A DNA stretch of 42,190 nucleotides from Nitrospirota bacterium (GTDB taxonomy: Bacteria > Nitrospirota > Nitrospiria > JACQCE01). Below the pieces are notes generated by a model that was not told where the DNA came from, ran no database searches, and was given only the letters and a program-made list of their open reading frames with translations. The stretch is from assembly GCA_016201765.1 (NCBI GenBank), contig JACQCE010000076.1, positions 1 to 42,190 of the forward strand, read 5' to 3'. Position 1 is the stretch's first letter. The number at the start of each line of letters is the position of its first letter. Shown one piece after another: positions 4,092 to 36,687 of the stretch. The translations under genes were made by a program, and so were the position numbers.

Positions 4092-4110
4092 AGCGTTATG
4101 TGGTTGCAGG

Positions 4111-4256
4111 CTGCTCAAAAAGCTCCACGACCCGCTCTCGCGGGTGCCCCGAGGCCGCAGGGGCCGAGGAGACCGGAGTCCGACCATCTCGCAGAGCGGT
4201 GGTCGGATGAGGATCTCCGAGGACCCGAGAACGCAGCAGGTGGACTTTTTCAGCAG
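4111..4256. repeat. dispersed palindromic repeat family 2, copy 1
   Basis: Terminal inverted CTGCTCAAAAAGCTCCAC / GTGGACTTTTTCAGCAG; shared core with 18632-18762 in opposite orientation. Confidence 0.8.
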
Positions 4257-15765: not shown

Positions 15766-15842
15766 AAAGGGGACAGGCTACTTTTTTGCTGATTGATCCC
15801 AGCACAATGCATATTGCAGGAAAAAAGTAGCCTGTCCCCTTT
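15766..15842. repeat. 22-bp inverted repeat
   Basis: AAAGGGGACAGGCTACTTTTTT ... AAAAAAGTAGCCTGTCCCCTTT, perfect arms around a 33-nt loop. Confidence 0.85.
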
Positions 15843-17604: not shown

Positions 17605-18635
17605 GCGACATGGAACTGTCGTTCAGCCATCTCCTCACGGGCTCGCTCCTGCGGGCGCTGGCGCTGATTCCGCTCATTGTGATGATGGGCTGGCTTGGTT
17701 TTTTGGCCGTGGTCGTCCGATCGGACGGCCTTGGCGTGCCGGGGGAGGGTCGGCGGCTCGTGAAGCGGTGGGATCGTTGGCTGGCCATCGGGACGCTGAG
17801 TGTAATTCCGGTGGTCTTGGTCGTCGGATTCGCCCATCAATCGATGATGATGAGCCGCCGCTCGTTGGGTGAACTGGGTCCATTCCTCTGGCCGATTCTG
17901 ACGCAGACGCATCTCGGCCGCGTGGCGATCGGCCAGGCGCTGTTGTGGATGGGTCTGGTGTGGGTCTGGAGCCGTGGCCGGATGGAAGCCGATCCTCTGC
18001 CCGATACAATAGACCGGCGCCTCGGCCTGCTGCTCGGCCTGGGCGCGCTCTTCTGCCTGACCCAGTCGCTGACCGGTCACGCGGCCGATCGGGGCGACTG
18101 GTCGGTGGACGTGCTGGCTGACTGGTTCCATCTGCTGGCCGTTTCGTTCTGGGCCGGCGGCGTCGTCCCACTCGCCCTGCTGGTGCCGGCGTTGATGCGA
18201 CGGTGCGGGCCGGTCGAAGCGAAGGCGGTGCTCATTCGTGCGCTGGAGCGGTTTTCTCCCCTGGCGATGACGTGTGTGGCGGTGCTGGTGTCCGCCGGCC
18301 TCTTCAATGCGTTCCGGCGTGGCGTCACGCTGCCGACGCTGGTGGACTCGACCTATGGCGGGATGCTGGCGCTGAAAATTGCCTTGACGGTGGTGGCAGT
18401 CGGACTGGGTGGGGTGAGCCGGTTTGTGGTGCTGCCGCGCCTGCGTCGAAACGCCCCAACGGATCAAACCTCCGGGACGTCACTGTTCCGGCGCGCCATC
18501 TCCGCTGAGGCCGGCGTGACGGCGATCGTGATACTGCTTGCGGCCATCCTCACGCAGACGCCGCCGTCCGGCACCGTCTCCATGACGACGGCCCCCATGC
18601 ATCATCCCCCCATGGAGCATCAGCAGGCCCGGTGA
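17601..18635 (+). CDS. CopD family membrane protein
   Basis: Multi-TM; LADWFHLLAVSFWAGGVVPLAL and ALERFSPLAMTCVAVLVSAGLFNAF motifs; overlaps copC. Confidence 0.88.
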   Translation: MSDMELSFSHLLTGSLLRALALIPLIVMMGWLGFLAVVVRSDGLGVPGEGRRLVKRWDRWLAIGTLSVIPVVLVVGFAHQSMMMSRRSLGELGPFLWPILTQTHLGRVAIGQALLWMGLVWVWSRGRMEADPLPDTIDRRLGLLLGLGALFCLTQSLTGHAADRGDWSVDVLADWFHLLAVSFWAGGVVPLALLVPALMRRCGPVEAKAVLIRALERFSPLAMTCVAVLVSAGLFNAFRRGVTLPTLVDSTYGGMLALKIALTVVAVGLGGVSRFVVLPRLRRNAPTDQTSGTSLFRRAISAEAGVTAIVILLAAILTQTPPSGTVSMTTAPMHHPPMEHQQAR

Positions 18636-18762
18636 AAAAGTCCATCTGCTGCGTTCTCGGCCCTTCGGGAATCCTCACGTACAACACAGTACGCTCCGGT
18701 TCTCTCAGGGCCTGCGGCCTCGGGGCACCCGCGTCAGCGGGTCGTGGAACTTTTTGACCGGC
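18632..18762. repeat. dispersed palindromic repeat family 2, copy 2 (inverted relative to copy 1)
   Basis: tgaaaaagtccatctgctgcgttctcgg ... cctgcggcctcggggcacccgcgtcagcgggtcgtggaactttttga. Confidence 0.8.
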
Positions 18763-18797
18763 CTGCCTGCAGACGCGTTATTCAACACCCTGTTAGA

Positions 18798-24092: not shown

Positions 24093-24167
24093 GCGGGAAT
24101 AGCTCAGCGGTAGAGCATCGCCTTGCCAAGGCGGGGGTCGCGGGTTCAAATCCCGTTTCCCGCTCCA
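24093..24167 (+). tRNA. tRNA-Gly (anticodon GCC), CCA encoded
   Basis: GCGGGAATAGCTCAGCGGTAGAGCATCGCCTTGCCAAGGCGGGGGTCGCGGGTTCAAATCCCGTTTCCCGCTCCA cloverleaf. Confidence 0.96.
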
Positions 24168-24217
24168 ATTTTTTGTCCGCTTAACCGCGGACAAAAAATT
24201 GGTCCCGAAGCGAAGCT

Positions 24218-25043: not shown

Positions 25044-25221
25044 GCGCAGCCTTGATCGCTTTGCGGGTTCAAATCCCGTTTCCCGCTCCATTTTGTATAC
25101 CTGTTCAACTCGATTGAACGGGATTTGATCCGAGCGGAAGGCGCTGGCGCGCAGCATCAAAGGGTGTGCCATCCGGCCCACTCCGGCACAAATCTCCTTC
25201 GGCCTAGGGCCTCAGGACACG

Positions 25222-25431: not shown

Positions 25432-25568
25432 TCTTCCGCTCAGGCTGGTCTGTGCACTCCCCCCACCGAGGGTATCCCCCGATTGTGTCACAATTGTGTC
25501 ACGACTTGCGGTTTCCAGCGCCTTCACTACCCGGAGAGGAGGCGTGCAGGTTACTGCATGGAAAGGTG

Positions 25569-25707
25569 GGTAGTGGGCCAGTTTGATGGATTCCACCGTG
25601 GCAAAAATGGGGACACGTCCCAATTTCCTCGTGCGACGCACGGCACGCAACGAAATTGGGACGTGTCCCTATTTTTGAGCCGGTCGCGGTGAAACTGGCC
25701 CACTACC
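25569..25707 (+). mobile_element. MITE-like element copy A (139 nt)
   Basis: 16-bp TIR GGTAGTGGGCCAGTTT/AAACTGGCCCACTACC; 8-bp TSD GAAAGGTG (25561-25568 and 25708-25715); internal 18-bp palindrome. Confidence 0.88.
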
Positions 25708-25722
25708 GAAAGGTGCTGCGCA

Positions 25723-25752
25723 TTGACAGGAAAGACCGGCATTGTTTAAAAT
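25723..25752 (+). promoter_or_regulatory. candidate sigma70 promoter for marR
   Basis: TTGACA - 18 nt - TAAAAT. Confidence 0.65.
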
Positions 25753-25762
25753 GGAAGTGATA

Positions 25763-25776
25763 TTTTGTATACAAAA
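25763..25776. promoter_or_regulatory. candidate MarR-type operator
   Basis: Perfect 14-bp palindrome TTTTGTATACAAAA just downstream of the -10 box. Confidence 0.6.
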
Positions 25777-25788
25777 CATTTACGCCTC

Positions 25789-26256
25789 ATGACCAAATCC
25801 GCCGACATTGCCGAGATCATGCAGTCCCTGCGGCGGATTTTCAAGGCCATTCAACACTATTCGGAACAGGTGCTGAAGGAATTTGGCGTGACCGGACCGC
25901 AACTCTGGGCGCTGCGGGTCATCTACCGGGAAGGCCGACTCTCCATGGGGGAACTGAGCGAGCGGATGTACCTGCACATTAGCACCGTCTCCGGCGTGGT
26001 GGATCGCCTGGAAGAGAAAGGTTATGTGGAGCGCACACGGGAGTCGACGGACCGGCGGATCGTGAAGATCAGTTTGACCAAGGAGGGCAAACGGGTGGTG
26101 CAACGCGCCCCGGAAGCCGCTCAGGGCAAACTGCTGCATGGGCTTGAAAGTCTCTCACGGCAAGAGGTGAAAGGGATTCATGCTTCGTTGGACAAGGTGG
26201 TTCGGTTGATGGAGATCCAGGATGTGAAAGCGACCTTCTTTTTCAGTGAGGAATAG
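25789..26256 (+). CDS. MarR-family transcriptional regulator
   Basis: GVTGPQLWALRVIYREGRLSMGELSERMYLHISTVSGVVDRLEEKGYVERTRESTDRRIVKISLTKEG. Confidence 0.92.
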   Translation: MTKSADIAEIMQSLRRIFKAIQHYSEQVLKEFGVTGPQLWALRVIYREGRLSMGELSERMYLHISTVSGVVDRLEEKGYVERTRESTDRRIVKISLTKEGKRVVQRAPEAAQGKLLHGLESLSRQEVKGIHASLDKVVRLMEIQDVKATFFFSEE

Positions 26257-26286
26257 GTCGATGGAATGTGTTGATTGGAGGGGATC

Positions 26287-27123
26287 ATGAGAGGGACGAT
26301 ACTGAAAAGGTTTTGGGTGGTCGGCATGGGACTTGTTTGCTGGATCGGCATGGGAATGGGTGTTGGCTCTCCCGTGTTCGGGTATGACGAGGCCGCCGTC
26401 ACGAACGGCGGCATTCTGACCGGCAAGGTCATCTTGGATGGTCCGGTTCCGGAACTGCGCATTTTCCCGCTGGCGCTTTATCCTTTTGGACCGTTTTGTG
26501 GAAAGAACGCCTCGATCTCTGACGGCCATGGTAACGTCCGCATCAGCGAGTTCGTAGTGTCACCTGACCACGGGATGAAAGACGTGGTGGTGGCCGTGCA
26601 GGGGGTCGGCAAAGGAAAGCCGTTCCCTCCCCTCATTGCCGACATCGTGACGCGGGGCTGCGAATTTTTCCCCTTTGTCAGTATCGTACAAAACCACGGC
26701 ACGTTCACGGTGAAGAATGAAGATCCGATTCTCCACAACGCGCAGCTCTATCAGAGCGAGAAGGGCAATTTGTTGCTCACGGTGCCCAATCCACCCCACT
26801 CATTTGGCACGTTTCCGATCAAGTTTGAACATCACAGACGGATTTACCAGATGATCTGCGGGATGCACGAGTTCATGCAGACGTGGGGCTATGCGGTCGA
26901 TAATCCCTACTATGCGCTGACGGATGAGCACGGCGCGTTCCGGATCGATGCCCTGCCTCCAGGAACATATAAGGTGACGGCCTGGCGCCCCCACTTCCAT
27001 CCGGTCGAGCGGACGGTGACCATTGCGCCGAACGGAACGGCGTCGCTGGCATTCGAGTTCGACGCCAAGACCGTGAAGCGTCCGCATTATGAAACGCAGG
27101 AGAGATTCCGAATTCAGCAGTAA
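26287..27123 (+). CDS. exported cupredoxin-like / carboxypeptidase-regulatory-like protein A
   Basis: Signal peptide; C-x2-H-x2-M (CGMHEFM); VDNPYYALTDEHGAFRIDALPPGTYKVTAWRPHFHP. Confidence 0.72.
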   Translation: MRGTILKRFWVVGMGLVCWIGMGMGVGSPVFGYDEAAVTNGGILTGKVILDGPVPELRIFPLALYPFGPFCGKNASISDGHGNVRISEFVVSPDHGMKDVVVAVQGVGKGKPFPPLIADIVTRGCEFFPFVSIVQNHGTFTVKNEDPILHNAQLYQSEKGNLLLTVPNPPHSFGTFPIKFEHHRRIYQMICGMHEFMQTWGYAVDNPYYALTDEHGAFRIDALPPGTYKVTAWRPHFHPVERTVTIAPNGTASLAFEFDAKTVKRPHYETQERFRIQQ

Positions 27124-27239
27124 ATGGATATGGCTCGGGTACATGCCGGCACACCGATCAATCTCGCCGTCAGCGGCCGGCTGGCATGACAACACGTGAA
27201 GGAGGGGAAAGCAATCACATTCACACAAGGAGGACTCTG

Positions 27240-27773
27240 ATGATTTCACCGCAACGACTCTTGTTTGCAGGTCTTGCTCTACTGACGATCGCGATCCTGC
27301 CGGCCTGCGCCAGGACCACCACCACAACCACTGCCGATACGCCCGCCATTCATTCCGCCATGGCCCCGGCGGCTTCTGCGCCGTCAACCCCGACGCCAAC
27401 GACCCCACCGGCCATGACGCCGTCGGCCTCGCCTCGGTTCCAAGATGCCTTCTTTGATTTCGAAAAGGCCCTGATCAAGAGCGACATGAAACGGTCATTG
27501 CAGGAGGACGCACAGCTCCTCAAGGCTCATCCGGAGCTTGCCGTGACGATCGGCGGCTATTGCGATGAACGGGGGACGGATGAGTACAATCTGGCATTGG
27601 GCGAACGGCGGGCCAGGGCGGTCCAGCGTTATCTGACCGCGCTCGGGGTGAAGCCCGCGCAACTGAAGACGATCAGTTACGGGAAGGAAAAACCCTTTTG
27701 TACTGACCACACCGAAGCCTGTTATCAACAAAATCGCCGAGGCCATTTTATCAGCGCAGCGGACGGGCCCTGA
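27240..27773 (+). CDS. OmpA/Pal-family lipoprotein
   Basis: Lipobox LPAC; FDFEKALIKSD...VTIGGYCDERGTDEYNLALGERRARAVQRYLTALGVKPAQLKTISYGKEKP. Confidence 0.9.
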   Translation: MISPQRLLFAGLALLTIAILPACARTTTTTTADTPAIHSAMAPAASAPSTPTPTTPPAMTPSASPRFQDAFFDFEKALIKSDMKRSLQEDAQLLKAHPELAVTIGGYCDERGTDEYNLALGERRARAVQRYLTALGVKPAQLKTISYGKEKPFCTDHTEACYQQNRRGHFISAADGP

Positions 27774-27799
27774 CATCCACTCGGCACACACATAGTGAT

Positions 27800-28420
27800 G
27801 TGGGCCCTGTGGAGTGTGAGGCCGTGGTGAATCTGTCAACCACACAGAAACGACTCTTCCAGCGAAGAGGGGTGGTGATCGCTGGCGGTCTGATCCTGAT
27901 CGTGCTCGGGGTGACGCTGTATCTGCCAGCCGAATACCATTTTGGGACGACCATCACGGTGTCGAGAGCCCCGAAGCGTGTCTGGGCGTGGTTTGCGAAT
28001 CCGAGCCATTGGACGCAACGCTTCCCAATGGTTCAATCGATTGAGGGCGGCTCGACACTGATGACCAGCGTCGGGACCCAGCGTCGGGTGAACGTGCAGA
28101 TTCCCGGCGGCAACACACTGACCAGCGAGATCATGGTCACCGATTTTACCACCGGGCGCCTGTATGCCGATCGGCATCTTGAAGACTGGCTGGATGGACG
28201 GCCGCTCCCGGTCACCAATGTGACGGATCGGCTGGAATTTGATCCGGATGGGCAGGGCCACACTCGGATCACCTTCACAGGTGCCTTTGAGGTCACGGGC
28301 CTGTGGAATCGATGGCTGGCGTACTTCGCGTTGAAACCGATGGTGGATCGAGTCATCGCCAGGGTGTTAACCGAGTCTGCTCATTCCATGGAGAACGAGC
28401 ATCCAGGCCCGGCGACGTGA
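27800..28420 (+). CDS. SRPBCC/polyketide-cyclase-like protein with N-terminal TM
   Basis: TITVSRAPKRVWAWFANPSHWTQRFPMVQSIE; hydrophobic N-terminus; start uncertain. Confidence 0.7.
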   Translation: MGPVECEAVVNLSTTQKRLFQRRGVVIAGGLILIVLGVTLYLPAEYHFGTTITVSRAPKRVWAWFANPSHWTQRFPMVQSIEGGSTLMTSVGTQRRVNVQIPGGNTLTSEIMVTDFTTGRLYADRHLEDWLDGRPLPVTNVTDRLEFDPDGQGHTRITFTGAFEVTGLWNRWLAYFALKPMVDRVIARVLTESAHSMENEHPGPAT

Positions 28421-28490
28421 CCTGAGACACAAATTTATAGAATAGACCGGGAGCGGACGACATTAAGTTGGACCGTACAGGAGTTAGAAA

Positions 28491-28557
28491 AGGAGGAACA
28501 TACGGCACGATGACCCATAACTACGCGTAGCTTTTCCAATCAGGAAAGGAGAAAAAC
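28491..28557 (+). promoter_or_regulatory. translational leader: SD + MTHNYA mini-ORF + SD-sequestering hairpin
   Basis: AGGAGG 28491-28496; ATGACCCATAACTACGCGTAG 28510-28530; CTTTTCC aatca GGAAAGG 28531-28549 pairs over the SD of the gene at 28558. Confidence 0.5.
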
Positions 28558-29364
28558 ATGAAAGCATTGGTTGCGGGGCTTGCGCTTCTCGGCGCAATCA
28601 GTTCTTTGAGCCTGCCCCTTGCCTCAGCCTATGAAGAGATGTCTGTGAGTGGCGGGGGCAGTGTGAGAGGGAAGGTCACCTTTAAAGGCACGCCTCCCGA
28701 GCCTAAGTTATTTGAGTTCGTGAAATTTCCTCAGCCAGATTTCTGTTCGAAAGCGGACTCGGATGGGAAAGGGCATCGGATCCTTCGAGAGGTCAAGGTG
28801 AAAGACGGCGCGTTGGGGGATGTGGTGGTGTTCATCGAAGGGATAGAGAAAGGGAAGCCATTTAAGTTTACCGGGACCGATGTCACTGCCGATCTCTGCC
28901 GTTTTCTGGTGCAAGGCGGGCCATCAGCCATGGTAGGAGTGGTGATGAACCGGAACGAGATCCGGGTCAAGAACCTTGACGCCGATCCCAGCGACCCCAA
29001 ATCCGCAGACGGTGTACTTCATAACCCCCATGGCTATGAGGTGAAGGGCGGCGCGAGCAGCACGATATTCAACAAACCCCTCCCGACCAAGGGAATGGTC
29101 CTGACACAAAAACTGATTTTCCGGAAACATGACAGCTTCATGCTGATGCAGTGCGATCAGCACAATTTCATGAATGTCTGGTTCCATCCGGTGGACAATC
29201 CCTATTACGCGATTGTGGGTGAAGACGGGACGTTCTCGATCGGTGACATCCCGCCCGGCAGTTATGAGATCTATGCCTTCCATCCCACTCTGGGAACAGA
29301 AGAGCAGAAGCTCACAGTTGTCGCAGGCGGAAAGGAAACCGTGAATTTCGAATTCAAAAAGTGA
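28558..29364 (+). CDS. exported cupredoxin-like / carboxypeptidase-regulatory-like protein B
   Basis: Signal peptide; C-x2-H-x2-M (CDQHNFM); VDNPYYAIVGEDGTFSIGDIPPGSYEIYAFHP, paralogue of 26287-27123. Confidence 0.72.
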   Translation: MKALVAGLALLGAISSLSLPLASAYEEMSVSGGGSVRGKVTFKGTPPEPKLFEFVKFPQPDFCSKADSDGKGHRILREVKVKDGALGDVVVFIEGIEKGKPFKFTGTDVTADLCRFLVQGGPSAMVGVVMNRNEIRVKNLDADPSDPKSADGVLHNPHGYEVKGGASSTIFNKPLPTKGMVLTQKLIFRKHDSFMLMQCDQHNFMNVWFHPVDNPYYAIVGEDGTFSIGDIPPGSYEIYAFHPTLGTEEQKLTVVAGGKETVNFEFKK

Positions 29365-29411
29365 TGGGGGAAGCTTTTACATCAACAGGCAGAACGGCTT
29401 AGACGAGGAGG

Positions 29412-30483
29412 ATGAGAATGTCCTACGCGTTGGTGAGCCAGTTCGCACTGCCTGTTTTGGTGTTTGCGGGGGTGACGGCGTCAGCCCTCCTGGCGCGCAC
29501 ATTGGCGCTGCGGGGCCTCCTGCAATGGGCGCAGCGCACCCGCTCGACGATTGATGACGCGCTTGTGGGCGCGATCCGGACCCCCTCCATCTACTGGTGC
29601 ATGGCGATCGGGCTCTATCTGGCTATCGGCACTTCGAATCTTGCCGCGCAGTACATCGCCTACGCATTCAAGGTGCTGCACATCCTCGTCATCCTGTCCG
29701 TCACGCTGGTGGTGGCCAATCTCTCCACCCAATTCATGACATATGCCATTCGAAAAGCCGAAATCCCGCTCCCGGTCACCGGCCTGTCGCGGGCGGTGGT
29801 GAATGGGATCATATTGACCATAGGAATCCTGATCGTACTGGGCACGCTTGGCGTGTCCATCACCCCGCTGCTGACCGCACTCGGTGTCGGAGGGCTCGCG
29901 GTCGCTCTCGCGTTGCAGGACACCCTGGGCAACCTCTTTGCCGGCATGCATATTCTGGTGGAGAAAACCATCCGGGTCGGCGACTTCGTGAAGTTGGAAA
30001 GCGGGGAGGAGGGGTATGTGGCGGATATTGGCTGGCGAACCACCCGTCTTCGGCTGCTGCCGAACAATCTCGTGGTCATTCCCAACAGCAAGCTCGCCCA
30101 GAGCATCGTGACCAATTACGATCTGCCCGAGAAGAGAATGGCGCTGCTTATTCCCATCAGCGTGAGCTACGACAATGATCCGGGCCGGGTCGAGCGCATG
30201 CTGGTGGAGGAGGCGGTCAAGGGATCACAGGACATTCCCGGCCTGCTCTCCGAGCCGGCGCCCTTTGTTCGATTCATCCCCGGGTTTCGGCGATTCTTCG
30301 CTCAACTTTACCCTCATCTGCCAGGTGAAGGAGTTTGTGGATCAATACCTGGTCCAGCACGAATTGCGAAAGCGGATCTTCAACCGGTTTAAAGAGGAGG
30401 GGATAGAGATTCCCTTTCCCATTCGAACCGTGTATCTTAAAAAGACGCATGAAAGCGAGCCGACTCTTGAAGAATCGGCATAG
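29412..30483 (+). pseudogene. MscS-family mechanosensitive channel with apparent +1 frameshift near 30288
   Basis: ALGVGGLAVALALQDTLGNLFAGMHILVEKTIRVGDFVKLESGEEGYVADIGWRTTRLRLLPNNLVVIPNSKL; C-terminus continues in another frame (GDSSLNFTLICQVKEFVDQYLVQHELRKRIFNRFKEEGIEIPFPIRTVYLK). Confidence 0.85.
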
Positions 30484-30495
30484 GGGTCACAGGCG

Positions 30496-32763
30496 ATGCG
30501 CATTACATTTCGTTTAATCTTCTCCCTGGTGGTGACGGTGACCGTGGTCGTCACCCTCTTCGCCTTTTTCCAGGTGCGCCAGGAAAAGGCGCGATTGAGC
30601 GAGGAACTTGAACGGCGCGCGGGGATTCTGGCGGAAAGTCTTCAGGAAACCGTTGAGCCGTTGCTTGAGAAGCGCTCGGCCTCCAATCTGCAGCGAATCG
30701 TCGACAAATTCGGCAACAGGGAGCGGTTGTCTGGGGTGGCCGTGTATGACGCCAACGCCCATGCCTTGGCGATTACACCGAGCCTGGCCACCCAACTGGC
30801 GAATCCACCAGACGTGGTGACTGAAAGCCTGGCGAAAGACCGCGGCCTAGGGGGCTTCGACTCACTGAACGGGAAGAGGATGCATTTCTATGCGCTGCCG
30901 CTCAAGCAGGAGGGGCAACTCGCCGGCGCGCTGGTCATCGTTCATGATGCCAGTTATATCGGCGACCGTATTTCCGAAATGTGGCGCCACAACTTCATGC
31001 GACTGTTCCTCCATGCGCTGTTGGTGTCGCTGACCACGCTCATCGTGGTGCGCTGGAGCATTGTGGGCCCAATCGCAAAGGCCGCCGACTGGATGAAGAA
31101 ACTGCGTACGGGCGAGGCCGGCGAACCCCTGTCCTTCTTAAAGGCGGATCTCTTTACTCCCTTGACCCGTGAAATCACCGTGATGGCCAAAAACCTCCGG
31201 GTCGCCAGGGCGGCGGCAGAAGAGGAAGCCCGGCTTCGGGAAGCGGCGGAATCCGTCTGGACCCCTGAACGCCTCAAAGAAAATCTGCGCTCACGCCTCG
31301 AAGGAAAGTCGCTTTTCGTGATCTCCAATCGCGAACCCTACATGCATGTCCGGAAAGGCAACCGTGTGGAAGCCATCGTTCCCGCCAGCGGGTTGGTTAC
31401 GGCGCTGGAGCCCGTGCTCCGGGCCAGCGACGGGACGTGGATCGCTCACGGAAGCGGGGAAGCCGATATGGACGTGGTGGATGCGCAGGCGCGTCTTCGG
31501 GTGCCGCCCGAGGACCCTCGATACACGCTCAGGCGGGTCTGGCTCAGCCGGGAGGAGGAAGCCGGCTATTATTACGGCTTTGCCAATGAGGGGCTGTGGC
31601 CGCTCTGTCATATCGCGCACACCCGCCCCATCTTTCGGGCGGAGAACTGGGCGCATTACCAGAGCGTCAATGCCAAGTTCGCCCAGGCGGCATTGGAAGA
31701 ACTTGAGGGAACGGAAGCCCCGTGTGTGTTGATTCAAGACTATCACTTTGCCTTGCTCCCCCGGTTGATCAAGGAACAGCGGCCGGATGCCCGCGTGGCG
31801 ATCTTCTGGCATATCCCCTGGCCCAATCCCGAATCATTCGGCATCTGTCCCTGGCAACGGGAGCTGCTGTATGGCATGCTCGGCGCCGACCTGATCGGAT
31901 TCCACACCCAGTTTCATTGCAATAACTTCCTCGAAACGGTGGACCGCACGCTGGAATCGCGCATCGATTGGGAACGTTTTGCGGTGGAACGGGAGGGCCA
32001 CGCCACGCTGGTGAAGCCCTTCCCGATCAGCATCGCGTTCCATGATCGATCTGATGACCTGTCCGTTGAGAATGGATCACGGGCTCAAAAGGAGACCCTG
32101 CTGCGAGAGCTGGGGGTGACCACCAAATATTTAGGTGTGGGAGTGGATCGTATCGACTACACCAAAGGCATTCTGGAACGGTTTCGAGGTATCGAACGCT
32201 TTTTGGAAAAATACCCTCAGTATCAAGGCCAATTCACGTTTGTCGAGTTGGGCGCGCCAAGCCGCACCCTGATCACGCGGTACCACGATCTGGTCGGGGA
32301 GGTCGAGGCGATGGCCGACCGGATCAACTGGCGCTTCAAGACAAAGGAGTGGAAGCCCATTGTCTTTTTAAAGAAACATCACAGTCATCAGGAGATTGCC
32401 CCCTTCTATCGGGCGGCCGATGTCTGTCTTGTGACCTCGCTGCATGACGGGATGAACCTGGTGGCGAAGGAATATGTCGCGTCGCGTGACGATGAGCGGG
32501 GGAGCCTGATCCTCAGCCAATTTACAGGGGCCTCCCGGGAGCTACGGGACGCCCTGCTGGTCAATCCCTACGATACGGAACAGATGGCGGAGGCGATCCG
32601 GTACGCGTTGGAGATGGATGCCGATGAGCAGCAGGACCGGATGCGGAGGATGCGCGACACCCTGAAACAGCACAATATCTATCGTTGGACCGCGAATCTC
32701 GTGCGGGAGCTGAGCCAGATTCGGTTGGGACATCACCCCACCGTGAAGAGCGGGTCGATGTGA
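30496..32763 (+). CDS. trehalose-6-phosphate synthase (GT20) fused to N-terminal membrane sensor + HAMP-like module
   Basis: TM - ~130 aa periplasmic - TM (LFLHALLVSLTTLIVVRWSIVGPIAKAADWMKKL) then SLFVISNREPY...VIQDYHFALLPRLIKEQRPDARVAIFWHIPWPNPESFGICPW...SLHDGMNLVAKEYVA. Confidence 0.9.
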   Translation: MRITFRLIFSLVVTVTVVVTLFAFFQVRQEKARLSEELERRAGILAESLQETVEPLLEKRSASNLQRIVDKFGNRERLSGVAVYDANAHALAITPSLATQLANPPDVVTESLAKDRGLGGFDSLNGKRMHFYALPLKQEGQLAGALVIVHDASYIGDRISEMWRHNFMRLFLHALLVSLTTLIVVRWSIVGPIAKAADWMKKLRTGEAGEPLSFLKADLFTPLTREITVMAKNLRVARAAAEEEARLREAAESVWTPERLKENLRSRLEGKSLFVISNREPYMHVRKGNRVEAIVPASGLVTALEPVLRASDGTWIAHGSGEADMDVVDAQARLRVPPEDPRYTLRRVWLSREEEAGYYYGFANEGLWPLCHIAHTRPIFRAENWAHYQSVNAKFAQAALEELEGTEAPCVLIQDYHFALLPRLIKEQRPDARVAIFWHIPWPNPESFGICPWQRELLYGMLGADLIGFHTQFHCNNFLETVDRTLESRIDWERFAVEREGHATLVKPFPISIAFHDRSDDLSVENGSRAQKETLLRELGVTTKYLGVGVDRIDYTKGILERFRGIERFLEKYPQYQGQFTFVELGAPSRTLITRYHDLVGEVEAMADRINWRFKTKEWKPIVFLKKHHSHQEIAPFYRAADVCLVTSLHDGMNLVAKEYVASRDDERGSLILSQFTGASRELRDALLVNPYDTEQMAEAIRYALEMDADEQQDRMRRMRDTLKQHNIYRWTANLVRELSQIRLGHHPTVKSGSM

Positions 32764-33164
32764 TGCCGTCAATCCTCTTTGTCTGCCTGCATAACGCCTG
32801 CCGGAGCCGGATCGCGGAAGCGATCTGCACGAGCCTTGCGCCCGACTCCTGGACGATCGCCAGCGCGGGCACCCAGCCGTCCGCTGAGGTGGATTTGAAA
32901 GCGGTCGACATCCTACGGCAACATCGCCTGGCCATATCCACGGCCCGCCCGAAGGGGTTCGACGCCCTTCCCGCCGTTCAGTGGGACTGCCACGTGGATA
33001 TGACCTGCGGAGAGGCGCCGCATACGATTCCGGCGCGGACCCGCCTGACGTGGGACCTTCCGGACCCGTTGGACGGCCCGATGACGCGCTATGAGGAGCT
33101 TTTTCAAGAATTAACCGCCCGTATCCGCAACCTGATCCAGGAGCTTCAGCCATGCCGTCCCTGA
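32763..33164 (+). CDS. low-molecular-weight protein-tyrosine-phosphatase / ArsC-like protein
   Basis: ILFVCLHNACRSRIAEAI P-loop, DLPDP aspartate loop. Confidence 0.88.
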   Translation: MPSILFVCLHNACRSRIAEAICTSLAPDSWTIASAGTQPSAEVDLKAVDILRQHRLAISTARPKGFDALPAVQWDCHVDMTCGEAPHTIPARTRLTWDLPDPLDGPMTRYEELFQELTARIRNLIQELQPCRP

Positions 33165-33838
33165 TGCCGCGGGCCGCGGAGCCGTTCCGCTTTTTCACGC
33201 GGTCGTGTCTGACCCTGATGACCGGCAGGAAGGCGAAGGATCTCAACGAACTGGTCGACTACCTGAAAACGGCATCGGAGCCGGTGATCTATCAACACAC
33301 CCATCGATTTTTGCGACAGCACCAGTATCTGGTCCCGGAACCCTCCAACGATTTCGCCTACTGGACGACGCACATGCTCCAGGATGAGCGGTTGGGGGAG
33401 CGGCTTGCGGCGATCGACACGGTCCGGTTTCATTCGTTGAATGACTTGCGGCGGGCGCTCGTATCCACGATTGAACAGCATCTTGGAAAGGACGGAATTC
33501 TTCGTCAGGCGCCGGAAGGGAAGGAATTTCACTTCATGAGCGCCGTGCAATTTTCCGTGCCCATCCAGTATCAAGCCCATGATCTCGTCGAGTTCCGCGA
33601 TTGCCTGAGCAAGGTCGGCATCGCCAGCCTCTATCTGCATATCTTCGAGGCGATGCTCCGTCCCCCCCTGGGGACGAACGATTTCTCCCATTGGCTGGAC
33701 ACCTCGCTGCATGAGACCGAGTTGGCCGGACGGATGGCCGGACTGGATCTGTACAGCCACACCCTGGAAGAGCTGCGCGCCACGATGATCGGGTTCATCG
33801 AGGGGAGGCTCCAGGAATTGTCCCATGCCGAAGCTTGA
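33152..33838 (+). CDS. DUF5752-family protein
   Basis: EPFRFFTRSCLTLMTGRKAKDLNELVDYLKTASEPVIYQHTHRFL...NDFAYWTTHML. Confidence 0.65.
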   Translation: MPSLMPRAAEPFRFFTRSCLTLMTGRKAKDLNELVDYLKTASEPVIYQHTHRFLRQHQYLVPEPSNDFAYWTTHMLQDERLGERLAAIDTVRFHSLNDLRRALVSTIEQHLGKDGILRQAPEGKEFHFMSAVQFSVPIQYQAHDLVEFRDCLSKVGIASLYLHIFEAMLRPPLGTNDFSHWLDTSLHETELAGRMAGLDLYSHTLEELRATMIGFIEGRLQELSHAEA

Positions 33839-35048
33839 AGCCTACCGGGACGTTGTCGGGGCGCAGACGCTGGAGGAGCTGCGCACGCTCGCCCGGTATC
33901 TGGAAGGAAAGTCCGTCCTGCACGTCAACTCCACGGCGGTCGGCGGCGGGGTGGCTGAAATTCTGAACCGCATGGTCCCGCTCCTGTGCGAGTTGGGGCT
34001 GGTGGCGACATGGGACGTCATCAAGGGCGGCGAGGCCTTCTATGCCGCGACCAAACGATTTCACAATGCGCTCCATGACGATGCGCAGGAGGCGATGCCC
34101 GAGGATTATCAGGTGTATGAGGAGACGATCGAGCAGAACTTCGCCCGCCTGCGGTTGGACGCCCAGATCGTGTTTATTCACGACCCGCAACCGGCGGCAT
34201 TGGTGAAAAAAAGGCGGGACTCGAACAACCATTGGATCTGGCGTTGCCATATCGATGTATCCCGGCCCCATCCACAGGTCTGGGATTTTTTTAAGCCGTA
34301 TGTTGAACGGTACGACGCGTGCGTCTTTTCGGCTCCCGCCTTCGCTCGGCAACTGTCCATTCCCCAGGTGCTGATTTCCCCGTCGATTGATCCGTTGAGC
34401 GACAAGAACAGGGAACTCGACCGGACGGAGGTGACGGCTGTTCTGGATCGTCTTGGCATTCCCACGGACAAACCGCTGGTCACACAGGTCTCCCGCTTCG
34501 ACCGGTTGAAGGATCCGCTGGGGGTGATCGAAGCGTTTCAGATGGCAAAACCCTATGTGAATGCCAGGCTGCTGCTCGTTGGCGGGTCGGCCGATGACGA
34601 CCCGGAAGGCGCCCAGGTGCTGGCCGAGGTTCGGGAGCTGGCCCAGGACGATCCGGACATCCTGATCCTGTCGCTGCCGCCCACGAGCCACGTGGAGATC
34701 AACGCCATCCAACGGGCCTCCAGTGTGATTCTTCAAAAATCGTTGAGGGAGGGTTTTGGCCTGACCGTGGCCGAAGCGCTGTGGAAGGGCAAACCCGTGA
34801 TCGCGTCCGCCGTGGGCGGGATTCCCCTCCAGATCACCCACCAGCATTCCGGCATCCTGGTCCACTCGATCGACGGCGCGGCGTATTGGATCCGGCAGTT
34901 ATTGCGCGATCCGGAGTACGCGAGGCGGCTCGGCGAAAACGGCCGGGAACATATCCGCCAGAATTTTCTGCTGACGCGCCACCTGAGGGATTATCTGTTG
35001 CTCTTTCTTTCCCTTGACCATCCCGGGGAGGATTGGATCCATTTATGA
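33825..35048 (+). CDS. GT4-family glycosyltransferase, trehalose synthase TreT-like
   Basis: VLHVNSTAVGGGVAEILNRMVPLLCELGLVATWDVIKG...RFDRLKDPLGVIEAF...LREGFGLTVAEALWKGKPVIASAVGGIPLQI. Confidence 0.85.
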   Translation: MPKLEAYRDVVGAQTLEELRTLARYLEGKSVLHVNSTAVGGGVAEILNRMVPLLCELGLVATWDVIKGGEAFYAATKRFHNALHDDAQEAMPEDYQVYEETIEQNFARLRLDAQIVFIHDPQPAALVKKRRDSNNHWIWRCHIDVSRPHPQVWDFFKPYVERYDACVFSAPAFARQLSIPQVLISPSIDPLSDKNRELDRTEVTAVLDRLGIPTDKPLVTQVSRFDRLKDPLGVIEAFQMAKPYVNARLLLVGGSADDDPEGAQVLAEVRELAQDDPDILILSLPPTSHVEINAIQRASSVILQKSLREGFGLTVAEALWKGKPVIASAVGGIPLQITHQHSGILVHSIDGAAYWIRQLLRDPEYARRLGENGREHIRQNFLLTRHLRDYLLLFLSLDHPGEDWIHL

Positions 35049-35075
35049 CATTTCGCCCCTGCCTTCGATATCCGC

Positions 35076-36506
35076 TTACATCAATCTTGCGTTGATCCAG
35101 AGGTGCGCCAGGATGGAGGCCGCATAGCCCAGCGCGATCGCCCAGGCCCATTTCAGATGCTCGAAAAAGGTATACATGCCCCGCGCTTGGCCCATCAGCG
35201 CGACGCCGGCGGCAGAGCCGATGGACAGCAATGATCCCCCGACGCCGGCGGTCAGCGTGATCAGCAACCACTGTCCATGCGGCATCTCGGGCTGCATGGT
35301 TAGAACGGCAAACATCAGCGGGATGTTGTCCACCACGGCCGAGAGGATGCCGATGAGCACGTTCGCCCAGGTCGGCCCCAGCCCGCCATAGAGTGATGCC
35401 GAGAAGATGGCCAGGTACCCAAAGGCATGGAGTCCCCCGACACACAACACCACGCCGTAAAAGAACATCAAGGTGTCCCACTCGACCCGCTTCATGCTGA
35501 TGAAGATGTCGAAGGGCCGAACCCTGGGCTTCATGTGCTCTCGAATCTTCCGCCGCGCCTCGTCGTTCAATTCAAGCCCCAGGACCTCATCCGGTTCCCC
35601 GGGCGTGGTCTGGTTGAGTTCACCGCGCCGGATGAAAAACCCGTACAGCTTCAAGACGCCGAGCCCTGTCATCATTCCCAGCGCCGGCGGCAGGTGAAAG
35701 AAGTGGTGCATCGAGACCGTCAGGATGATCGTCAGTAGGAAGAGGCCGACAATGACGCCGCCGCCCGGTTTGATGGCGATCGCTTCCTGCGCGGCCTGGG
35801 GTTGTTCTCTTGGAACGGCAAACGACATGATGACGGCCGGGACCAGCCAGTTGATCACCGACGGCACGAACAGGGCGAAGAATTCGAAAAAGCCGACCCG
35901 CCCGTCCTGCCAGACCATCAGCGTGGTGATGTCGCCAAACGGGCTGAACGCCCCGCCGGCATTGGCGGCCACCACAATGTTGATGCAGGCCAGCGTGACG
36001 AACCGCGGCCGGCCGATCCCGACGGCCATCACGACGGCGGCCATGACCAGCGCGGTGGTGAGGTTGTCGGCCAACGGCGAGATGAAAAAGGCCAGCAGTC
36101 CGGTCATCCAGAAGATCGACGGGAGGGAATAGCCGGAGGAAACGAGCCGGGAGCGGAGCGCATTGAACACGTTCCGTTCGTCCATGGTGTTGACATAGGT
36201 CATGGCGGCCAAGAGGAACAGCAGCAGCTCGGCATACTCCAACAGATTGTGCCGTACGGCTGCGGCGGCAGTTGTCGTATCGCCATGGGACGCATAGGCG
36301 AGGGCGACCAGCACCCAAATCACGCCGGCGGCCACGATGACCGATTTCGATTTGCGAAGGTGGAGGAACTCCTCGCCGATGACCAGCGCATAGGCCAGGA
36401 TGAACACGGCGAGCGACAGCAGGCCGGCCCAGGTTGCGGTCAGATCAAGCGGCATCATCGTTTCCGCGGTCATCACAGGCCAGCATAGCGGGGTTTGACG
36501 CGGCAC
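35076..36506 (-). CDS. nhaD: NhaD-type sodium:proton antiporter
   Basis: FFISPLADNLTTALVMAAVVMA, INIVVAANAGGAFSPFGDITTLMVWQ, multi-TM. Confidence 0.85.
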   Translation of the reverse strand: MPRQTPLCWPVMTAETMMPLDLTATWAGLLSLAVFILAYALVIGEEFLHLRKSKSVIVAAGVIWVLVALAYASHGDTTTAAAAVRHNLLEYAELLLFLLAAMTYVNTMDERNVFNALRSRLVSSGYSLPSIFWMTGLLAFFISPLADNLTTALVMAAVVMAVGIGRPRFVTLACINIVVAANAGGAFSPFGDITTLMVWQDGRVGFFEFFALFVPSVINWLVPAVIMSFAVPREQPQAAQEAIAIKPGGGVIVGLFLLTIILTVSMHHFFHLPPALGMMTGLGVLKLYGFFIRRGELNQTTPGEPDEVLGLELNDEARRKIREHMKPRVRPFDIFISMKRVEWDTLMFFYGVVLCVGGLHAFGYLAIFSASLYGGLGPTWANVLIGILSAVVDNIPLMFAVLTMQPEMPHGQWLLITLTAGVGGSLLSIGSAAGVALMGQARGMYTFFEHLKWAWAIALGYAASILAHLWINARLM

Positions 36507-36533
36507 GCAAGAAGATTGGTGGGGGTGTGATTC

Positions 36534-36672
36534 GGTGGTGGGTCAGTTTGCTGGATTCCACCGTGGCAAAAATGGGGACACGTCCCAATTTCGTTGCGTG
36601 CCGTGCGTCGCACGAGGAAATTGGGACGTGTCCCTATTTTTGAGCCGGTTGCGGTGAAACTGACCCACTACC
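36534..36672 (+). mobile_element. MITE-like element copy B (139 nt), loop inverted relative to copy A
   Basis: TIR GGTGGTGGGTCAGTTT/AAACTGACCCACTACC; 8-bp TSD TGTGATTC (36526-36533 and 36673-36680). Confidence 0.88.
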
Positions 36673-36687
36673 TGTGATTCAGGCACC

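Follow-up and report, generated by a model that had tools for sequence, protein, structure and literature searches.

How does the central loop of a small mobile element come to lie in opposite orientations in two copies whose arms point the same way? The question is raised by a window of 42,190 nt (the whole stretch of DNA analysed, contig C72 in our numbering) from the genome of a Nitrospirota bacterium, which is available as a 1.96-Mb draft of 121 contigs and is 85.6% complete. A preliminary description of the window had identified two MITE-like copies, A and B, as independent insertions, and had proposed that their loop is either an invertible micro-switch or is flipped by a mechanism of transposition or replication. 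Its coordinates and lengths, TIRs, target duplications, stems, and inverted loops were correct base for base.

Two copies with opposite loops

Each copy is 139 nt long and has 16-bp TIRs, with one mismatch in the case of B. Inverted stems of 18 bp, GGGACACGTCCCAATTTC and GAAATTGGGACGTGTCCC, enclose a 24-nt loop. The asymmetric arms and bulges have the same orientation in both copies, and the loop of B reads as the exact reverse complement of that of A. The features are as follows.

25561..25568, plus strand: left 8-bp target duplication of copy A, GAAAGGTG
25569..25707, plus strand: copy A, 139-nt MITE of subfamily I, loop orientation f
25569..25584, plus strand: left TIR of copy A, GGTAGTGGGCCAGTTT
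25610..25627, plus strand: left stem of copy A, GGGACACGTCCCAATTTC, REP-like
25628..25651, plus strand: loop of copy A, CTCGTGCGACGCACGGCACGCAAC
25652..25669, plus strand: right stem of copy A, GAAATTGGGACGTGTCCC
25692..25707, minus strand: right TIR of copy A
25708..25715, plus strand: right target duplication of copy A, GAAAGGTG
36526..36533, plus strand: left 8-bp target duplication of copy B, TGTGATTC
36534..36672, plus strand: copy B, 139-nt MITE of subfamily I, loop orientation r
36534..36549, plus strand: left TIR of copy B, GGTGGTGGGTCAGTTT, one mismatch
36575..36592, plus strand: left stem of copy B
36593..36616, plus strand: loop of copy B, GTTGCGTGCCGTGCGTCGCACGAG, exact reverse complement of the copy A loop
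36617..36634, plus strand: right stem of copy B
36657..36672, minus strand: right TIR of copy B
36673..36680, plus strand: right target duplication of copy B, TGTGATTC

When folded as single strands, A and B reached -54.5 and -52.6 kcal/mol, respectively, compared to approximately -21 kcal/mol for shuffled sequences (z ca. -11 in each case).

The window contains other repeats as well. An inverted pair at positions 4106-4252 and 18633-18766 belongs to another repeat family of ca. 140 nt, in which the ends are conserved and the centres differ (GACCATCTCGCAGAGCGGTGGTCGG versus TACTGTGTTGTACG). A perfect 25-nt tandem duplication, TTGACAAAATCACCCGACCCAGTAA, is located at a gene junction (2251-2300). 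Positions 25063-25094 are a 32-nt near-copy (97%) of positions 24140-24171, which span the 3' end of a tRNA-Gly gene (24093-24167) and its flank; the near-copy is a possible trace of an integration event.

A multicopy family with three kinds of loop

With A and B as queries, dozens of copies were revealed in the host genome, in two identity classes (ca. 95-100% and ca. 88%). DNA and pattern searches of this genome were combined, the stretches around the matches were extracted, and at least 83 distinct copies carrying both 18-bp stems were obtained; a further few were degraded or cut by contig ends. Since dozens of copies exist in two identity classes, and 83 could be extracted and oriented, we conclude that the loop inversion between A and B is not due to chance. 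Of the 77 copies for which both ends are available, 60 have retained their 8-bp target duplication, either perfectly or with a single mismatch. The copies are therefore independent insertions, as had been proposed for A and B.

Three subfamilies, which differ in their loops, were distinguished. The TIRs and the stem are common to all of them, and the stem is nearly identical throughout. The loops of subfamily I (CTCGTGCGACGCACGGCACGCAAC) and subfamily II (CTCATGCGGCGCGCGGCGATCAAC) are both 24 nt long and homologous; subfamily III has a 37-nt loop close to CCCAGAGTCAGTCACAAGCAGGCAGCAGGAACTCACC, unrelated to the other two, and different outer arms. Four intermediate or divergent copies (L040, L041, L050, and L060) were placed in subfamily I by their loops. 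The arms recombine between subfamilies: in L088/L090, the left arm and loop of subfamily III are joined to the right arm of subfamily II, and in L015 a subfamily II left arm is followed by the loop and right arm of subfamily I. One subfamily III copy, L064 (C29:375-623), holds a second insertion in its loop.

No orthologous insertion was found in 57 related genomes, which yielded a single weak match of 26 nt. The TIR was absent from 269 other genomes of the class, and exact patterns of the element matched neither the genome contigs of 84,980 species nor viral contigs. The element was found in no other genome among those searched, and hence a flip was not observed between orthologous copies.

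IS1-type ends and a REP-like core

A transposase with matching ends was found in the host genome, which bears out the earlier reading of the copies as MITE-like. It is encoded by the following element.

C65:20639-23285 (L058): IS1-type element of 2.65 kb that starts with GGTAGTGGGTCAGTTTGAA and ends with its reverse complement, the same ends as those of the MITE

The element is bordered on both sides by the 8-bp duplication CTCTCAGG. Its 277-aa transposase matched PF03400 (DDE_Tnp_IS1) with 31.6 bits, above the cut-off of 24.1. Among NCBIfam models the best was IS1, yet its score of 67.7 is below the cut-off of 100, and we therefore consider the protein a divergent member of the IS1 family. 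One copy of the transposase gene was found in the host genome. The MITE and the IS1-type element have their ends alone in common, and the MITE interior did not arise from the IS by deletion. Beside the transposase gene (L058:448-2773), there are a DUF6932 ORF of 155 aa and a 311-aa ORF without a known family, perhaps a passenger gene pair. Two stretches, L018 (C99:1-242) and L058 (C65:20537-23393), have ca. 100 bp in common on each side of one site, as well as the same duplication CTCTCAGG; at this site, one contig carries a subfamily I MITE and the other the 2.65-kb IS1-type element. The two contigs appear to represent alternative alleles of this site within the population.

The 23-mer AAAATRGGGACACGTCCCMATTT was present, with up to two mismatches, in 16 of 396 genomes of the phylum, including the host, while a reversed control pattern was present in none. 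A Y1_Tnp (RAYT-type) gene in L126 lies between two inverted copies of AAAATAGGGACACATCCCATTTT (compare the MITE stem, AAAATAGGGACACGTCCCAATTT), and a similar REP copy adjoins a Y1_Tnp gene in L124. Because the stem resembles these REPs, the core is probably derived from a REPIN and nested in an IS1-type MITE. Judged by its sequence, the element as a whole is a non-autonomous MITE with IS1-family ends and a REPIN-like core, i.e., two inverted REP-like stems and a short loop.

The host genome has four Y1_Tnp genes. In the 85.6% complete assembly, the MITE stem does not border any of the four, except as part of a MITE copy upstream of the one in L117. The REP that flanks the Y1_Tnp gene at C63:85906 (L115) is another one, GGGGACAGGCTACTTTT. 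In the window, positions 15766-15842 form a REPIN-like palindrome, AAAGGGGACAGGCTACTTTTTTGCTG and its inverse, which has ca. 40 relatives in the genome, and the REP of this palindrome also flanks the gene at C63:85906. Loop flips in the GGGGACAGGCTACTTTT REPIN family cannot be scored, since asymmetric arms are absent there.

Loop flips are rare and inherited

Each copy was oriented by its asymmetric outer arms, and its loop was then scored as f or r. The f to r counts were 20:20 in subfamily I, 8:20 in subfamily II, and 6:9 in subfamily III. Both orientations are thus common genome-wide, and B is not the exception to a single fixed orientation, a case for which the preliminary description had allowed. 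Once normalised, the loop is uniform among the members of one subfamily and distinct from the loops of the others; at least one separate flip is therefore required for every subfamily. We conclude that at least three independent inversions of the loop relative to the arms have occurred, three being the safe minimum. The loop of subfamily III is unrelated in sequence and has flipped too, and the flips therefore follow the palindrome and not the loop. The orientation of the loop as such is probably without function.

On a tree of family I built without the loop columns, six orientation changes were counted (4-6 in bootstrap samples), compared to a mean of 11.4 with shuffled labels, and on the corresponding tree of family II there were three (2-4) compared to 5.4; these arm trees are based on few columns and are weakly supported, and the counts could be raised by recombination among copies. 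Orientation was also linked to neighbouring mutations. In family I, the right-arm variant CGCA was present in 10 of 15 r copies and in none of 19 f copies (Fisher test worked by hand, P ca. 2e-5). One loop variant of this family occurred in 4 of 14 r copies and in none of 19 f copies, and other variants were seen in f copies only. Two copies, L005 and L021, have identical arms and opposite loops. From the clustering of orientation on loop-free trees and its linkage to neighbouring mutations, we conclude that flips are rare and inherited, and that copies of each orientation multiplied afterwards. At two places, contig ends overlap within the same element; opposite-loop alleles were sought there, and none were found (C23 and C28 are both r; C6 and C62 are both f).

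Covariation in the stem and in the TIRs

Within the 18-bp stem, 10 paired changes were observed versus 5.5 expected (P 0.0015, in a permutation that ignores relatedness). An example is L011, in which ACACGT/ACGTGT has become ACGCGT on both sides. Immediately beyond the stem lies a single asymmetric base (G on the left, A on the right), which is a hot spot: 6 and 4 of 34 copies have a change there, compared to an average of 0.87 per site. In subfamilies I and II, these changes were in every case to the base of the partner. Ordinary G/A transitions could account for part of the excess. In L037, L065, and L080, G and A are swapped at this site, as expected from a wider inversion. In the case of the TIRs, covariation across all copies was not significant (P 0.17), and the CC state of the copy A TIRs was found in just one other subfamily I copy. 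The compensatory change earlier proposed for the TIRs is thus not convincing there, while in the 18-bp stem such change is seen.

Template switching and its alternatives

We put the probability at ca. 0.6 that replication template switching in the perfect stem inverts the loop and that transposition multiplies each orientation; of the readings offered in the preliminary description, the one best supported is that the loop is flipped by replication. The flip would be a replication accident in the perfect stem, which is 18 bp long, or ca. 26 bp with the CAAAAAT-R outside it. The growing strand would jump to the complementary strand, copy the loop backwards, and return in the other stem. Short switches of a similar kind would restore the match between the two stem arms, and the IS1-family transposase would move the MITE in trans. 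The template-switch model predicts inverted loops and restored or compensatory stems, with examples that include bacterial rRNA genes (PMC8794818). A single unreturned switch is expected to yield elements in which both arms are of the left type or both of the right type; a search for such elements revealed no clear case.

The main rival to template switching is ectopic gene conversion, in which one copy would pair with another in inverted register via the identical stems and take the loop of the other copy backwards. More than 80 copies have the extended stem of ca. 26 bp in common, and the inter-subfamily chimeras L088/L090 and L015 indicate that exchange between copies happens. However, two exchanges would be required, in the two short stems on either side of a loop that lacks homology, and private loop variants of family I keep to one orientation, which argues that loops seldom pass between f and r copies. 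We consider conversion unlikely. Inversion could instead be driven by an enzyme, a RAYT (HUH) nuclease or a site-specific recombinase, that acts on the REP-like stems and re-inserts the core either way. With a near-identical stem in all subfamilies, a stem-recognising enzyme would leave the same pattern; the stem is like REPs that flank or adjoin RAYT genes in the same phylum, four Y1_Tnp genes are present in the host, and a cognate gene could be missing from the incomplete assembly. Yet none of the four Y1_Tnp genes lies beside a MITE-type REP outside MITE copies (L115 is flanked by GGGGACAGGCTACTTTT), the flips are rare, and the exchange at the outer asymmetric site varies between copies, so the breakpoint is not fixed. 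An enzyme of this kind appears distinctly improbable. We are at least as doubtful that a single-strand nuclease, RAYT-like or other, cuts at the REP-like stems and puts the REPIN core back, one way round or the other, within the IS1-type MITE; if it did, two enzymes would move the element, one acting on the whole and one flipping the core.

A fast invertible micro-switch that varies per locus and controls neighbouring genes would agree with the ca. 50:50 orientation in family I and with the location of A and B just upstream of a MarR-like and an HtrA-like ORF (names are from our reading of the translations). Orientation is, however, clustered (4-6 changes in family I versus ca. 11 with shuffled labels) and linked to arm substitutions (CGCA in 10/15 r versus 0/19 f copies), and overlapping contig ends on the same element agree. 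Ordinary double-strand inversion needs a loop of more than 24 bp, and the loop is too short for it. This part of the preliminary description we regard as extremely improbable. Equally improbable is an assembly artefact at the palindrome, against which the preliminary description had cautioned. The assembly is a draft, with several contig ends in or near copies, but the C65/C99 overlaps of just over 100 bp suggest a word length of ca. 100, which would anchor the loop, ca. 60-80 nt into the element, to unique flanking DNA. Random flipping, moreover, would not tie orientation to arm bases (10/15 versus 0/19) or to private loop variants.

Related systems and implications

Small hairpin-associated inversions of chloroplast DNA were reportedly described by Kelchner and Wendel in 1996. 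In chloroplast trnH-psbA, an inversion of 25-27 bp within inverted repeats of at least 18 bp is variable within species (PMC2903610). A loop of ca. 25 nt, perfect inverted repeats of ca. 18 bp, recurrence, and inheritance are common to the chloroplast inversions and those described here, but the former concern one locus across plants, whereas the latter affect a multicopy mobile element in one bacterial genome, in which three subfamilies and loops of two lengths occur. The template-switch mutations described for RNA hairpins are alike in that an inverted loop and compensatory stem changes are the predicted products; those cases are RNA genes selected for structure (PMC8794818), whereas the MITE is non-coding. 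With IS1-family MITEs, the element has in common a 16-bp TIR matching that of an IS1-type element, 8-bp duplications, the lack of a transposase, a length of 130-150 nt, and many copies; it differs in that the interior is a REPIN-like palindrome and not an IS deletion derivative. Like the REPINs and REPs of RAYT (TnpA-REP) systems, it has two inverted REP-like units around a variable loop and a stem similar to REPs beside RAYT genes. In contrast to them, it lies inside IS1-type ends with 8-bp duplications, and no cognate RAYT was found in the host genome. Searches of a limited open-access literature revealed no earlier account of a bacterial MITE with an inverted loop.

The element appears to represent a REP-like core captured by an IS1-type MITE. 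Evidence for hairpin-loop inversion generally comes from cross-species comparison of one locus at a time. This one genome offers more than 80 independent copies that have a common stem, three loops, and both orientations, which makes switching rates, breakpoints, and stem repair measurable. Stem covariation in such elements need not signal selection for structure.
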